Assembly (NCBI GenBank): GCA_948144175.1 | Contig: CANXME010000532.1 | Location: 1,801,001-1,865,000 of the forward strand | Source: Closterium sp. NIES-65 | Taxonomy: Eukaryota > Streptophyta > Zygnematophyceae > Desmidiales > Closteriaceae | Length of the DNA: 64,000 bases | Reading direction: 5' to 3' | In this document: in pieces, positions 1 through 11,729 of the stretch | Layout: each line of letters begins with the position of its first letter | How positions within the stretch are numbered: the stretch's first letter is position 1 | Notes under the pieces: model-generated | Database searches by the model: none | What the model was told of the DNA's origin: nothing | What the model saw: the letters and a program-made list of their open reading frames with translations, nothing else | Made by a program: the position numbers and the translations under genes

Positions 1-441
1 GCGCGTGCGGAACAGCGGCGCAGCAGCGCAGGACAACGCATGGCAGCTCAAGGCAGCGCGGGCAGCAGCGCAGCACGCGCGGCAGCAGGGCAGCGTGCGG
101 CGGGGCAGTGTGGGGCAGCGCGATCGCAGGGCAGGGCACGTACGCGGGAAGCAGGTAGCACAACAGCGCGCGGCTTTGGGCAGGGCAGCGCGACAGCGCG
201 CTGGGCAGGGCAGGGCAGCGCGATAGTGCAGGGCAGGGCAGGAACGAATGGTGGGCCTTAAAAAAAAAGGTCCTACGGAGTGAACTGCTCTGAAACCATG
301 TCAAGTAAATGAACAAGAATGATTGCATTGAGAAGAAATCGAGTACACGTACTAACCCTAACTGAGTTATACCCCTTATAGCATACCCCACAACAGCTTA
401 CACAATATATATATATATATATATCTTTGAAGTGTGTAACA
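1..441 (-). mobile_element. Element J: 5' end of a minus-strand copia element (LTR, primer site, leader), cut by window edge
   Basis: Read on the minus strand, 441 to 299 is an LTR ending ..ACTTGACA. It carries the family core (GTGGGGTATGC, then a TAGGGTT block). Directly after it comes a primer site TGGTTTCAGAGCAG (298 down to about 285), a variant of the initiator-Met site. Positions 260 down to 1 are a GC-rich imperfect repeat (GGCAGCGCG units), as in the leaders of other members of this family; it ends at the window edge before gag. The outer LTR boundary near 441 (TGTTACACAC) is uncertain because the second LTR lies outside the window and an AT microsatellite sits inside. The two open frames in 1-260 are by-products of repeat composition. 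Confidence 0.7.
401..424. repeat. AT dinucleotide microsatellite
   Basis: About eleven tandem AT units lie inside the LTR of element J. No function is implied. Confidence 0.9.
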
Positions 442-709: not shown

Positions 710-1709
710 CACGGGCTTATCGTACTCAGCGAGTCAACTTGCTGCCTAGCGGAACTCGATCGAGCACTACACTATCTCGTCAGCACACCAATGATCGGCC
801 TAACCTACCACAAGACCGGAACACGACTCCAAAGCTAAACGGCTACGTGGACGCTGACCACGCAGACGATTCTGACAACAGGCAATCACGTACCGGCTAC
901 ATCTATCGACTTGAGCCTGTCAGAATCCCAGCCACTAACCACTGGGATAAAAGGGCTTGTTTGTGTAGCGGGTGAGTGCGCCCATAACCCCTCAGGCCGG
1001 CGCGCGTGTAACCCTTCCCTAGGATCAATCGGGGATCACCAGTGGACCTCTGACACCCGCCCGCACTGGGATGCCCGAAGTGCACACACAGGGATTCAAA
1101 CCCGAGACTTTTGCTCTTATACCATGTCAGAATCCCAGCCACTAACCACTGGGATAAAAGGGCTTGTTTGTGTAGCGGGTGAGTGCGCCCATAACCCCCC
1201 AGGCCGACGTGCCTGTAACCCTTCCCTAGGATCAATCGGGGATCAACAGTGGACCTCTAACAGAACCCGTCGGTCCTATCTCGTGGCAGTCGAGCAAGCA
1301 AGAGCTAATTGCTCTCTCCTCAGCTGATGCAGAATACATTGCACTCTGCTCAACCACCAAGGAAGGACTATACCTTCGCGAACTACTGGAAGAAGCAAAG
1401 GTGGCCCAGTTACCCAGCTTCTCCTGCTCCTATGAGAACCAATCTGCAATACACATAGCGAACAAGAGCGGGTTCGCGAACCGAACGAATCACATCGCCT
1501 TGCGCTACTTCTTCGTGAAGGACGAGATCGAGAAAGCGATACTCGAGCTATCCTACTGCCCCACGTCCGAGATGGCCGGAGATTACTTGACCAAGAAACT
1601 CGGAAAGCAGAAGTTCGAGTACTGCATGCTGCTGAATGGACAAAGCCACGTCACCAGCAACGAATGTGATGACACTCCAGAAGCGAAGGGGAGTGTTGGA
1701 AACATATAG
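710..1709 (+). pseudogene. Family-B copia pol remnant (end of RT, RNase H), interrupted by a TRIM
   Basis: This is the 3' end of a copia pol gene. After a degraded stretch with a deletion near 750, the RNase H start NGYVDADHADDSDN (about 838-880) is clear. Positions 918-1262 are a TRIM insertion. Coding resumes at 1268 with SSKQELIALSSADAEYIALC and the remaining RNase H, ending GDYLTKKLGKQKFEYC and a TAG at 1707-1709, just inside the 3' LTR. It matches the same segment of the intact family-B element at 31980-32501 almost residue by residue. Everything upstream of RNase H (gag, protease, integrase, most of RT) is missing. Non-functional. Confidence 0.85.
918..1262 (-). mobile_element. TRIM copy T1 (345 bp, two 138-bp LTRs)
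   Basis: A terminal-repeat retrotransposon in miniature with no coding capacity. Read on the minus strand, the 5' LTR is 1262-1125 and the 3' LTR is 1055-918. Both begin TGTCAGAGG or TGTTAGAGG and end GGGATTCTGACA. The 69-bp interior starts with the primer site TGGTATAAGAGC (1124 downwards), followed by a B-box-like GGTTTGAATCC. It ends in a G-rich polypurine tract next to the 3' LTR. Flanking target duplication: GAGCC (913-917) and GAACC (1263-1267), one mismatch. It interrupts RNase H of the family-B remnant. Confidence 0.9.
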
Positions 1710-1812: not shown

Positions 1813-2158
1813 TGTCAGAGGTCCAATGGTGATCTCCAATTGATCCTAGGGAAGGGTTACAGGCATGTTGGCCTGGGGAGTTATGGGTGCACTCACCCAC
1901 TACACAAACAAGCCCTTTTATCCTAGTGGTTAGTGGTTGGGATTCTGACACGGCATCAGAGCGAAGGTCTCGGGTCCGAATCCCAGCGTGTGCACTTCGG
2001 GCATCCCAGTGCGGGGGGGTGTTAGAGGTCCAATGGTGATCCCCGATTGATCATACGGAAGGGTTACAGGCACGTTGGCCTGGGGGGGTTATGGGCGCTC
2101 TCACCCGCTACACAAACAAGTCTTTTTATCCCAATGATTAGTGGCTGGGATTCTAACA
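1813..2158 (+). mobile_element. TRIM copy T2 (346 bp, LTRs 138 and 139 bp)
   Basis: Plus-strand TRIM. The 5' LTR is 1813-1950 (TGTCAGAGG..TTCTGACA) and the 3' LTR is 2020-2158 (TGTTAGAGG..TTCTAACA). The primer site is decayed (CGGCATCAGAGC, 1951-1962). A B-box-like GGGTCCGAATCCC follows at about 1971-1983, and GCGGGGGGG immediately precedes the 3' LTR. Perfect 5-bp target duplication AGAGG (1808-1812 and 2159-2163). It has no open reading frame of its own. Confidence 0.93.
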
Positions 2159-3337: not shown

Positions 3338-4459
3338 ATGGCTACCCCCAGTGTCCTTACCTTTGATGCTGAGGGCCGTGCCGTTGACTTTGAGGTCTGG
3401 GTCGATGACCTCCAGCTGTTTCTCCAGTGCGATAGGGCAGACGGACTCTCTCTGTTCGATCTCACCTCTGGTGTTTCTCCCGCCCCACCTGCTACTGCTG
3501 ACAGCACTGTTCGCTCACAGTGGGCCACACGCGATGCTGCTGCTCGCCTTGCTGTGCGTCGCCACTTACCGACCGCTGAGCGTGCGCACTTTAGCCAGTA
3601 CAAGAGTGCTAAGACCTTGTACGACGCTGTAGTTGCACGCTACTCCTCCCCTGCCACTGCTGCTCTTAACCGCCTCATGCTGCCGTACCTGTTCCCTGAC
3701 CTTGCTGCTTTTCCCACAGTCGCTGACCTTGTCACTCACCTTCGCACTAGTGACATTCGCTACCGCGCTGCGCTTCCTGCTGAGTTCTGTGCCCAGAACC
3801 CCCTCCCCATTTACATCACCCTCTACTACATAGTCACCCGCCTCCCTGACTCCCTTCGCTTAGTCAGGGACCACTTCCTCTCAGTTTGCCCCACCACACT
3901 CACCGTCGACCTCCTCGAGGAGCGCCTCCTAGCAGCAGAGAAGAGCATATTCGCTGTAGGAGCCTCTCGTGGTGACCCTCGCACCCCCGTCTTTGAGGGG
4001 TGTTCCCCCTCCCCCCTCTTGCCCTCTGTTGCTTCTGCTGCTGCAGCCGACCTCGTTGGTTTCGAGTCGGTCGGCGCTGCGTCTGCCCCGAGCGGGAGAC
4101 GCCGCACCGGCAAGGGCAAGGGGGGCAAGGGCGCTGGAGGGGCTGGCGGGGGCGGTGGAGATGGTGGTGGAGGCAGTGGAGGGGGTGGGGGTGGTGGTGG
4201 TAGTGGTGGCGGGGGTGGAGGTGTCGGTGGCAGCAGTGGAGGCGGAGGAGGCAGCGGTGGTGGCGGAGGGAGCGGAGGCGGTGGAGGCGGTGGAGGCGGC
4301 GGAGGCGGCGGAGGTGGCCGAGGCCCTGGCGGCAGCAGTGGACCTGGTCGCGGCTCTGCGCAGAGGAATGGCTCCGGTGGTGGTCCGCGCCAGCAGCAGC
4401 AGAGCAGTCGTGAGACCCTGTCCCCTCAGCAGCTTTGTGAGTGGTACGCTGCGCGTTAG
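3338..4459 (+). CDS. gag: Element A gag (capsid domain and Gly-rich tail), ended by a premature TAG
   Basis: The gag protein would form the particle that packages element RNA. The 373 codons start at ATG 3338 (MATPSVLTFDAEG), the start shared by gag in C, D, E and H1. Residues 1-250 are the capsid-like domain with VRRHLPTAERAHFSQYKSA. Residues about 250-270 are basic (SGRRRTGKGKGGKG), and about 270-345 are almost pure glycine and serine. Residues 363-373 hold SPQQLCEWYAAR. The stop at 4457-4459 replaces a CAG still present in relatives (WYAARQRGGG), so gag was originally joined to pol. TRIM T3 interrupts 16 bp further on. Confidence 0.85.
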   Translation: MATPSVLTFDAEGRAVDFEVWVDDLQLFLQCDRADGLSLFDLTSGVSPAPPATADSTVRSQWATRDAAARLAVRRHLPTAERAHFSQYKSAKTLYDAVVARYSSPATAALNRLMLPYLFPDLAAFPTVADLVTHLRTSDIRYRAALPAEFCAQNPLPIYITLYYIVTRLPDSLRLVRDHFLSVCPTTLTVDLLEERLLAAEKSIFAVGASRGDPRTPVFEGCSPSPLLPSVASAAAADLVGFESVGAASAPSGRRRTGKGKGGKGAGGAGGGGGDGGGGSGGGGGGGGSGGGGGGVGGSSGGGGGSGGGGGSGGGGGGGGGGGGGGGRGPGGSSGPGRGSAQRNGSGGGPRQQQQSSRETLSPQQLCEWYAAR

Positions 4460-4475
4460 CGCGGTGGGGATACTA

Positions 4476-4850
4476 TGTCAGAATCCCAACCACTAGACCA
4501 TTGGGATAAAAGGGCTTGTTTCAGTAGCGGGTCAGTGCGCCCATAACCCCCCAGGCTAACATGCCTGTAATCCCCTAAGGATCAATCGGGGATCTCACAG
4601 TGCAGCTCTGCTGACACCCCCCCATACTGGGAGGCCCAGGACTGAGCACAGCGGTAACGGCCTGCATGTGCATACACCGGGATTCGAACCCGAGACCGCT
4701 CTGATACCATGTCAGAATCCCAACCACTAGACCATTGGGATAAAAGGGCTTGTTTCAGTAGCGGGTCAGTGCGCCCATAACCCCCCAGGCTAACATGCCT
4801 GTAACCCCCCAAGGATCAATCGGGGATCTCACAGTGCAGCTCTACTGACA
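4476..4850 (-). mobile_element. TRIM copy T3 (375 bp) with tRNA-like Pol III promoter
   Basis: Best-preserved member. On the minus strand the 5' LTR is 4850-4710 and the 3' LTR is 4616-4476 (141 bp each, three differences). The 93-bp interior begins with an exact initiator-Met primer site TGGTATCAGAGC (4709-4698). Downstream is a perfect B box GGTTCGAATCC inside a 5-bp-stem T-arm (about 4693-4677). It ends with TATGGGGGGG abutting the 3' LTR. The last 30 bp of the 5' LTR contain TGGTCTAGTGG, a consensus A box, in the context of a tRNA-Glu D-arm. Target duplication TACTA (4471-4475) and TACTG (4851-4855). No coding capacity. It splits element A between gag and pol. Confidence 0.95.
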
Positions 4851-4852
4851 TA

Positions 4853-7800
4853 CTGGTCCCTGCACCTACGTTCTCCGTACCAGCGACCGCGCTGGTGAGC
4901 AGTGCGGGGGCCCGCACTCCACCAAGCGCTGCTTCGGCCGCCTGACGGACGCGTGGCGTCACCAGTTCCCTGAGGCCTCTGAGATCCCTCGCTGGGGAGA
5001 GCTGTCTAGGGCGGGGGTTGCTATCTTTGATCTTGATTTTGATGCTATTCTTGCTGCCATGTATGTTGTTTCTAATAGTGTTGTGGGTGACTGTTACCTG
5101 TGTGTTCCGCCTGACCCGGGCATTGAGACTGCTGCTCTAGGTGCTGGTGAGGCTGCTGCTCTAGGTGCTAGCGCGTCTGCTGCCCCAGGTGCTGGTAAGT
5201 CTGCTCTCTCAGGTACCACGTTGGCTCAGGCCTTACACACCTTCACCCTTGACTCGGGTGCTTCCCGCTCCTTCTTTCGAGACCGCACCACACTTACGCC
5301 GCTTAGTCGACCGGTTGCGGTCTCCCTGGCGGACCCCTCTGGGGGTCCTGTCCTTGCTCGCTTCTCCACTTACTTACCGTGTCCGGCAGCCCCCTCTGGC
5401 ACCCTGTCAGGTCTCTACCTCCCCTCGTTCTCTACGAACTTGGTGAGTGGAGCTGATCTTCAGGATAGGGGGGTTGACGAGTTCACTCCTACGAGTCAGC
5501 GGGTGACCCACTGCACGTGTGCTCAGACAGGCCGACACTTGGCCACGTTCACCCGTCGGCCGGGGTCGAGCCTGTACACCCTCACTACTGAGCCTCCTCT
5601 GGCTGCTGAGCCTGGTGAGGTCGCTGCGTCGAGTCAGGTGTTTGCTGCAGCGTCCAGGTCTAGTCCTGTGTCTGCTCCCTGCTCGTGTCATCTCCAGTCT
5701 CACCAGACTCTCCTTTGGCACCACCGCCTTGGTCACCCCTCTCTGCCTTGTCTCCGAGGCATGGCCTCCCGTGTCCTTGTCTCTGGTCTCCCCTTGTCTC
5801 TCCCTCCCCTACCTTCCGGGCCTACCCCTACCTGCGTCCCCTGCGTTGAGGGGCGACAGCGCGCCGCCCCTCACTCCTCCGAGTTTCCACCGACAGAGGC
5901 TCTGTTGCAGACTCTTCATATGGACGTGTGGGGCCCCGCTCGCGTCCGTGGCCAGGGGCACGAGCGTTACTTCCTGTTGGTGGTTGACGACTACTCGCGT
6001 TACACCACGGTCTTCCCCTTGCGCAGCAAGGGCGACGTCACTGAGGTGTCGATCGACTGGATCCGCGCAGCTCGTCTCCAGCTCAGAGAGATTTTCCCAT
6101 CCGACTTTCCTGTTCTGCGTCTGCACTCTGACAGAGGCGCGGAGTTTTCCTCTGCCCGTCTGGGAGCCTTCTGTCGGACACAGGGCATACGCCAGACCTT
6201 CACGCTTCCGGCCTCTCCACAGCAAAATGGGATTGCTGAGCGCCGCATTGGTATGGTCATGGACGTCGCTCGTACATCCATGATCCATGCGGCTGCCCCC
6301 CATTTTCTGTGGCCGTTTGCGGTTCAGTACGCGGCGCATCAGCTCAACCTTCAGCCCCGGGTCTCCTTACCAGAGACCTCCCCCACCCTACGGTGGACGA
6401 GGAAGGTTGGCGATGCGTCTGCGTTTCGGGTCTGGGGATCTCGGGCGTTTGTCCGCGACTTGCCTGCGGACAAGGTGTCCCCCCGTGCTGTTCCCTGCGT
6501 CTTCCTTGGCTTCCCCCCTGACGCGCCTGGTTGGCAGTTTTACCACCCCACCTCGCGCCGTGTTTTGTCCTCCCAGGACGTCAGCTTTGACGAGTCGGTG
6601 CCTTACTACCGTCTCTTCCCCTACCGCGCTGCGACCCTTCCCCCGCCGCCGCTCTTCCTTGTGCCAGGTCCTCCCCCGGTAGACCCCCTCCCCCCTCACG
6701 GTCCTTCCCCGTCAGGTGTGTCCCAGGTAGACGCAGTCGAGCCTGTCGAGGTAGCTTTTGACTCTGGTGCTGCTAGAGGTGCTGAGCCTGCGGGTGCCGG
6801 GTCTGGAGGTGCTGAGTCTGGGGGTGCTGAGCCTGGGGGTGCTGAGACTGGGGGTGCTGAGCATGGGGGTGCTGAGCCTGGAGGTGCTGAGCCTGGGGGT
6901 GCTGCGTCAGAGGGTGCGGAGCCTTGGGGTACGGAGCCTGGGGGTGCGGAGCCGGGGGGCGCTGGGTCTGCTCGTGTGGCCGCCGGCGGTGCTTCGTCGA
7001 GGCGGGAGCCATTCTCTCCACTGGAGCTGCGCGAGTGGTTTGCCCGGCGCTGGAGCCGTGCTGCTCAAGCTGGAGGTACTACTGTTGCTGGTGGTCCCGG
7101 AGGTGCTCGTACTGGCGATACTGGAGCTGCTGGGACTTGGGGTGCTGCTGGGGCTGTTGGAGTTGGTCCTGCTGGAGCTGCTGGCGGTACTGGAGCTGCC
7201 GGTCCTGCTGGAGTTGGTGCTGCTGGAGCTGCTGGAGCTAAAGCTGTTGGGGGTGTTGGCAAAAATGTTTCTGCTGGCTGGTGCGTCTAAGGGTGTTGGA
7301 GTTGGCGCTGTTGGAGCTGGAGGTGCTGCTGGCGCTGGTGCTGCCGCTGGGGGTACTGGTGCTGTCCCTGCTGGTTCTGGAGGCGCTGCGCGGCCGAGGC
7401 CGTACTTCATTCCGCTCCTTGAGCAGGTTCTTGGTCTCCCGCCCTCTACTGGTCCTGCTCCTCCCTTAGAGTGTCCACAGTCTGACCAGTCGCCGTCACA
7501 GTTACAGCCCGCCTCCCCCCTACCTGCTCCTTCTCCCTACACTGGTCCTACTGGAGGTCTTGCTGAGCATCGTGAGCCTGCGTCTCGTCCTGCGTCGCCT
7601 GTTCGTGCTGCTCGCGCTAGTCGTCGTGCTCCGCGTTCGCGTCCTCCTGCGGTCCCAGGCACACACCAGATGGCACTGCATCCTTCCACTGCTCCTCTGC
7701 GTGTCCCGTTGCCGTCTCCTCCAGAGTCCTCTCTTCCTGTCCTTGCTGACCCTGAGTTTGACTCTCTTCGTGCTGCCAGTCCTACTGTCACGCGTCTCCT

Positions 7801-11587: not shown

Positions 11588-11729
11588 TGTCAGAATCCCA
11601 ACCACTAGACCATTGGGATAAAAGGGCTTGTTTTAGTAGCGGGTCAGTGCGCCCATAACCCTCCAGGCAAACGCGCCTGTAACCCCCCCTAGGATCGATC
11701 GGGGAGCTCACAGTGTAGCTCTACTGACA
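11588..11729 (-). mobile_element. TRIM solo LTR T4 (142 bp)
   Basis: A single TRIM LTR (minus strand TGTCAGTAGAGC..GGGATTCTGACA) flanked by a perfect TTATT duplication (11583-11587 and 11730-11734). It is closest to T3. The interior and second LTR are gone, as expected after LTR-LTR recombination. The A-box sequence TGGTCTAGTGG is kept but the B box is lost. Confidence 0.93.

Follow-up and report, generated by a model that had tools for sequence, protein, structure and literature searches.

Pol III promoters occur in the TRIMs Helenus, Cassandra, and Ajax, for which a grouping under the name TRIMp3 has been proposed (Kojima, 2024; PMC10886601). As described in that paper, the LTR of Helenus elements carries tRNA-derived sequence that includes both box A and box B, and members come from fungi, animals, and one plant (Selaginella). 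Cassandra has a 5S-type promoter (boxes A and C) in each LTR (PMC7215508; PMC10853983), and Ajax, a TRIM of nemerteans, carries 5S-derived boxes in the LTR and uses a tRNA-Leu primer (PMC10886601).

Here, we analyzed a 64,000-nt stretch of the genome of the alga Closterium sp. NIES-65 (the window), which contains a TRIM that we call T3. Like Helenus, T3 is short and non-autonomous, is bounded by LTRs, and carries boxes A and B of the tRNA type, a primer site (PBS), and a polypurine tract (PPT); the likeness extends to the 5-bp TSDs of the plant and fungal Helenus families, to the Copia mobilization proposed for the fungal ones, and to the size of the Selaginella family (120-bp LTR, 85-bp interior) (PMC10886601). 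As Helenus is described there, however, both boxes lie in the LTR, whereas the T3 family has only the A box in the LTR and a single, internal B box past the PBS, which sets the two apart by description (PMC10886601). The tRNA-like sequence inside the T3 LTR is only the 5' half. Cassandra resembles T3 in its Pol III promoter (predicted for T3), in its PBS TGGTATCAGAGC, and in forming tandem LTR-interior arrays similar to our locus L080, but differs in promoter type and in having the promoter in each LTR (PMC7215508; PMC10853983), and its length is 565-860 bp (PMC10886601) compared with 375 bp for T3. We observed no 5S rRNA-derived sequence in the T3 LTR: Rfam (E ≤ 1) returned neither a tRNA nor a 5S rRNA match within positions 3500-6000. 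Ajax shares with T3 a Pol III-type promoter in a TRIM and 5-bp TSDs, but differs in its boxes, host, and primer (PMC10886601).

With tRNA-derived SINEs (SINE2), T3 would share a tRNA-type Pol III promoter and a short non-coding RNA. SINEs, which depend on LINEs for their mobility, lack LTRs, a PBS, a PPT, and a fixed 5-bp TSD, all of which the T3 family possesses. Overall, T3 looks like a TRIMp3 element, in that boxes A and B stand in tRNA order and spacing and are conserved, with the exception of short A boxes in 9 of 20 copies of one subfamily. While tRNA-type promoters in TRIMs were known from Helenus, new here would be a tRNA-type promoter whose two halves lie in the LTR and the interior on either side of the PBS, together with an R repeat predicted to be 10 nt long. 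We did not find this split arrangement in the open-access literature searched, where it is undescribed for Cassandra, Helenus, and Ajax. An earlier sequence-only reading of the window had named one precedent for a Pol III TRIM, Cassandra; Helenus, with its tRNA-derived promoters, is another (PMC10886601).

Results

T3 contains a split, putative tRNA-type promoter block

T3 has the short LTRs, PBS, PPT, length below ~1 kb, and non-coding interior (93 bp) of a TRIM, and an ORF with Copia domains (5059-7290) begins shortly downstream of it in antisense orientation (Table 1). The minus-strand LTR ends ...ACAAGCCC TTTT A TCCCAA TGGTCTAGTGG TTGGGATTCTGACA, and is followed by the PBS and then by GGTC TCGGG TTCGAAT CCCGG. 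We take TGGTCTAGTGG to be an A box and GGTTCGAATCC a perfect B box, judged against the consensus motifs. The presence of a split tRNA-type promoter block in T3, with the A box in the LTR, the B box in the interior, and the PBS between them, is confirmed. We likewise found every component listed by the sequence-only reading, that is, a tRNA-Glu-like CCCAATGGTCTAGTGGTTGG within the last 30 LTR bases, the A box, the LTR end TGACA, the PBS, and a T-arm with a 5-bp stem (outer pair T-G), the loop TTCGAAT, and the B box.

Two further TRIMs in the window, T1 and T2, belong to a second subfamily (B; T3 belongs to A). The A box is one base short in both (TGGTTAGTGG in T1), and the B boxes read GGTTTGAATCC in T1 and GGTCCGAATCC in T2. 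A solo LTR of the T3 type retains the A box, and the ~150 nt that follow it contain no B box consensus.

Two potential hairpins were seen in the block. The A-box flanks TCCCAR...YTGGGA (4720-4740 in the window, and in the copies) can pair, with one possible compensatory change at R-Y, and the LTR end TCTGA can pair with TCAGA of the PBS (4697-4717, minus strand) around a 7-nt loop; the resulting hairpin resembles an anticodon arm and would leave the PBS partly masked.

Table 1. Positions in the window of T3, its parts, and related elements
Feature	Position	Strand	Remarks
T3, complete TRIM, 375 bp	4476..4850	-	Two 141-bp LTRs, PBS, PPT; flanks CAGTA/TAGTA
T3 5' LTR, 141 bp	4710..4850	-	TGTCAG...CTGACA
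CAAGCCC, predicted Pol III start	4746..4752	-	CAA at -11 to -9 from tRNA-like position 1
Predicted R repeat, 5' copy	4742..4751	-	AAGCCCTTTT; predicted from start and terminator positions
TTTT of 5' LTR	4742..4745	-	End of predicted R
A box	4724..4734	-	TGGTCTAGTGG; within last 31 bases of 5' LTR
T3 interior, 93 bp	4709-4617	-	Starts with PBS, ends in TATGGGGGGG
PBS	4698..4709	-	TGGTATCAGAGC; abuts LTR end; complements 3' end of host initiator-Met tRNA, allowing for added CCA
Variable-loop-like GGTC and T-arm	4677..4697	-	TCGGG-TTCGAAT-CCCGG; outer stem pair T-G
B box	4680..4690	-	GGTTCGAATCC; first base 20 nt past LTR end
PPT	4617..4626	-	TATGGGGGGG; resembles TATGGGGGTG preceding TGTCAGA LTRs of window Copia elements
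T3 3' LTR	4476..4616	-	97.9% identity to 5' LTR; A box not followed at 25-45 nt by a B box
Predicted R repeat, 3' copy	4508..4517	-	Ends in TTTT 4511-4508, predicted terminator
T1, subfamily B TRIM	918..1262	-	LTRs 1262-1125 and 1055-918; 69-bp interior; flanks GGTTC/GGCTC
T2, subfamily B TRIM	1813..2158	+	LTRs 1813-1950 and 2020-2158; 69-bp interior; PBS CGGCATCAGAGC; TSD AGAGG
Solo LTR, T3 type	11588..11729	-	TSD AATAA; A box present

The block recurs in a mobile family

To collect copies, we searched the genome (874 Mb, 2400 contigs) and obtained at least 41 matches with T3 as the query (1729 first-look candidates, 40 scored) and at least 45 with T1 (2688 candidates, 40 scored). These sets are the best matches to T3 and T1 rather than a random sample, and the counts are lower bounds. 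TSDs could be resolved at 63 of 79 loci, same-flank pairs included; in this best-match set, 51 of the 63 had a perfect 5-bp TSD, as is typical of Copia, and nine more matched at 4 of 5 positions, compared with 25 of 3906 mismatched control pairs. Together with identical LTRs, these TSDs show that the TRIM family has been mobile.

For the box survey, 64 of 96 matches were kept after removal of same-flank copies, and 3 of 81 inputs gave no match. The filter required CAAG...TTTTAT, so the conservation of that motif cannot be judged from this set. Among the 64 flank-distinct copies, the A box was exact in 51 and the B box consensus GGTTCGANNCC was present in 53, again beyond the PBS and outside the LTR. 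All 18 copies with identical LTRs and a perfect TSD kept both the A box TGGTCTAGTGG and the B box GGTTCGANNCC, as did 29 of the remaining 46. In T3, the gap from the end of the A box to the start of the B box is 33 nt, versus 32 nt in the host tRNA-Glu (hand count); in the 47 two-box copies it is 33 nt in 29, 36 nt in 17, and 37 nt in one. The spacing had been claimed to equal that of a real tRNA; it comes within one nucleotide in T3, and is further off in the 36-nt copies.

We counted a single A box followed after 25-45 nt by a B box in the 64 kb of the window, while 100 dinucleotide shuffles yielded no such pair. A chance resemblance in one decayed copy is scarcely credible: while 1.4 A-box-like 13-mers (≤2 mismatches) are expected per window, the joint pattern was absent from the shuffles and the block is conserved in dozens of independent insertions. 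We concluded from the shuffles and the recurrence in 64 flank-distinct copies that the promoter block did not arise by chance, and rejected a single-copy coincidence, which the copy set contradicts.

Some copies shared flanks on different contigs (the pairs L003/L004, L005/L008, L006/L009, and L010/L011), a pattern that the assembly of two haplotypes or subgenomes would produce. At L080 (G000:C106:2458500-2461000), we observed a tandem TRIM array, the 2.5 kb of which hold nine CAAG...TTTTAT sites along with six sites resembling the PBS.

The block is conserved between subfamilies

Recent copies are alike everywhere, and a comparison between subfamilies is therefore the stronger test of conservation. 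We aligned 41 of 60 loci plus T2, having dropped 19 (same-flank duplicates, array members, and truncated copies); one more, L034, was left out of the subfamily test. Subfamily A (T3-like, n = 21) was then compared with subfamily B (T1-like, n = 20), and a column was scored as fixed-different when the mismatch exceeded 0.7, with gap columns set aside. The stretch that begins at CAA and closes with the T-arm spans 76 columns, among which we observed no fixed substitution and one 3-nt indel after the PBS. By comparison, 8 of 94 aligned columns were fixed-different in U3 (Fisher p = 0.009), and 14 of 127 when the remaining interior was counted together with U3 (p = 0.0012); past the T-arm, a long indel also separates the subfamilies. 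The mean mismatch was 0.9% in the A box (gap set aside) and 5.7% in the B box, but reached 13% for U3 and 20% for the remaining interior. The comparison thus places the beginning of the conserved block near the predicted start site and its end at the B arm. The PBS and LTR end inside it would be conserved for other reasons anyway.

The A box was one base short in 9 of the 20 subfamily-B copies, mostly reading TGGTTAGTGG. Three of these copies (L040, L056, and L058) have perfect TSDs and the LTRs of a fourth (L032) are 99.3% identical, indicating that this lineage also moved; either it did so despite a non-canonical A box, or such a change in the A box is tolerated. The sequence-only reading had proposed conservation across copies and spacing as tests, and both speak for a split promoter, with the exception of this sublineage.

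We also considered a TRIM transcribed by Pol II, in which the U5-PBS-T-arm block would be kept for hairpins serving reverse transcription or packaging and the tRNA likeness would be left over from a SINE or tRNA captured long ago. T3 RNA indeed folds into three hairpins, one of which pairs the LTR end with the PBS, but its folding energy is ordinary (z of -0.5 to -1.1, little better than shuffles), on which ground we rejected RNA structure as the main support. T1 and T2 fold differently from T3. The R-Y position of the A-box hairpin is A-T in 45, G-C in 10, G-T in 2, and other or unmatched in 7 of 64 copies, which would suit a retained stem, yet the conserved part also includes CAAGCCCTTTT and the A-box loop. 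While conservation of the PBS and LTR end in any case, and the mobility of the short-A-box sublineage, fit Pol II transcription, the B box retains the TFIIIC consensus and no obvious TATA box was seen in the LTR on inspection by eye. On balance, we regard a Pol II-transcribed TRIM as unlikely.

Likeness to tRNA

ARAGORN found no tRNA gene. Rfam at a relaxed threshold (4640-4765, E ≤ 10) gave five weak matches, of which the best by E-value was the 15-nt T-arm as part of a tmRNA (E = 0.064), and none was a tRNA match extending over both the A box and the T-arm. A functional tRNA gene was rejected on these weak, partial matches, the ARAGORN result, and the absence of an acceptor arm. As candidate parents, we compared tRNA-Glu, initiator-Met tRNA, and the tRNA-Ser genes that adjoin two initiator-Met genes. 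The T3 block may possibly derive from tRNA-Glu, but it lacks the acceptor arm, and the host gene reads TAGTCTAGTCGGTTAGGAT versus TGGTCTAGTGGTTGGGAT in T3.

The T-arm is not explained by extended primer pairing

T-arms are self-complementary, and the T-arm of T3 might be an extended pairing region for the initiator-Met primer that merely mimics a B box. Such extended pairing has precedents in box 1 of Ty1 and the primer activation signal of HIV. We located the host initiator-Met tRNA (the best six genes are identical over 72-73 nt to a hand-entered plant sequence), the complement of which would read CAGGTTTCGATCCTGG past the 12-nt PBS. In register, the sequence after the PBS matched this complement at only 5 of 20 positions in subfamily A and 7 of 20 in subfamily B, and the best ungapped match was 11 of 18. 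The sense tRNAs were closer: host tRNA-Glu and tRNA-Ser each matched at 15 of 18 positions and the initiator itself at 13-14 of 18, in agreement with the sequence-only reading, which had argued against extended pairing. The complement of the initiator T-loop is TTTCGAT, compared with TTCGAAT in T3, the distance from PBS to T-arm differs by 3 nt between subfamilies, and extended pairing leaves the A box unexplained. Of three Copia elements compared in the window, two agree with the complement at 10 of 12 positions downstream of the PBS; extended pairing may thus occur in this genome, though not for this T-arm. Our survey of PBS junctions in the fetched loci and the window listed 15, of which 2 were TRIM copies and the other 13 represented nine distinct sites by reading; at none of the nine does a B box follow within 35 nt, and the T-arm is therefore not general to this primer site. 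We judge extended pairing very improbable as the origin of the T-arm, and rejected an extended primer-site complement since the T-arm is closer to sense tRNA than to the initiator complement.

Predicted start and termination sites

We next asked where a Pol III transcript might begin and end. In plant tRNA genes, the boxes of which are discussed in PMC11700998, CAA is an initiation motif, usually at -1 to -10, and T runs terminate transcription (PMC11700998). The first A of the CAA in T3 lies 17 nt before the A box, and TTTT follows six bases after that A. T4 runs were confined to the two LTR sites in 34 of 41 copies; the absence of internal TTTT was rejected as evidence, since 82% of resampled sequences also lacked it. 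Among 22 host tRNA genes, some of which share flanks and are non-independent, 19 have a T run of at least four within 30 nt downstream, and the longest run is exactly four in 13; for the most part, these genes end at T4-T5 runs. Three observations count against the assignment: CAA occurs within 20 nt upstream of just 10 of the 22 host tRNA genes, the upstream 50 bp are 43% AT compared with 52-78% for those genes, and the TTTT at +7 to +10 would have to be read through in T3.

Discussion

The proposal of a split tRNA-type Pol III promoter made by the sequence-only reading is partly supported. Weighing the sequence evidence on both sides, we think it likely that this non-autonomous Closterium TRIM is transcribed by Pol III from a tRNA-type promoter split at the LTR boundary, with the A box in U5, the PBS at the position of the anticodon arm, and the B box where the interior begins. 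TFIIIC would bind both boxes only where the 5' LTR joins the interior. Pol III would then start at CAA, 17 nt ahead of the A box, pass the first TTTT, read the PBS, T-arm, interior, and U3 of the 3' LTR, and stop at the same TTTT in the 3' LTR. The predicted T3 RNA is ~244 nt long with a 10-nt terminal repeat, AAGCCCUUUU, at both ends. A start at the 5' LTR CAA and a stop at the 3' LTR TTTT together would yield this repeat, which LTR strand transfer needs.

Initiator-Met tRNA would prime reverse transcription at the PBS, strand transfer would use the minimal R, and a Copia element would supply reverse transcriptase and integrase. A probable helper is the Copia family with short LTRs in the window, the LTRs of which start TGTCAGA after TATGGGGGTG and abut the PBS.

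We lean, with less confidence, toward a further consequence of placing the PBS between the boxes: reverse transcription would duplicate only the A box, the promoter would exist only at the 5' LTR-interior join, solo and 3' LTRs would be dead for Pol III, and start and terminator would fall within 10 nt, giving a minimal R. Solo and 3' LTRs, with an A box only, should not start Pol III transcription, in contrast to Cassandra with its 5S promoter in each LTR.

If true, this would be a second way of joining a Pol III promoter with LTR replication, in which the PBS between the boxes reduces U5 to ~32 nt and leaves 3' and solo LTRs without promoter function. It would make a clear prediction on the minimum length of a working R repeat, and would extend tRNA-type TRIMs to Zygnematophyceae, an algal sister group of land plants, beyond the one plant species of Kojima (2024; PMC10886601).

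The exact LTR end had no match in viral contigs, phage records gave none, and a reverse-frame protein search returned one weak match only. In other Closterium strains, NIES-53 and NIES-54, gene models carry the same layout at the amino-acid level: 47 proteins contained 23 LTR-end segments, 11 of which continue through the PBS into the T-arm, some carrying the 3-nt insert and others lacking it. Three NIES-54 gene models (P0123, P0125, and P0129) contain repeated U3-R pieces (GLWAHSDPLLNKPFYPNG or near), which suggests that these are duplicated LTR segments and that the gene models include TRIM sequence. In keeping with a Closterium host, the Copia protein encoded at 46.6-50.9 kb of the window shares up to 96-97% identity with proteins from Closterium strains. 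We also observed four related Copia-like copies in the window (3-10, 13-20, 34-40, and 57-63 kb), with long GC-rich tandem repeats of 8-, 15-, and 21-nt units in or near several of them.
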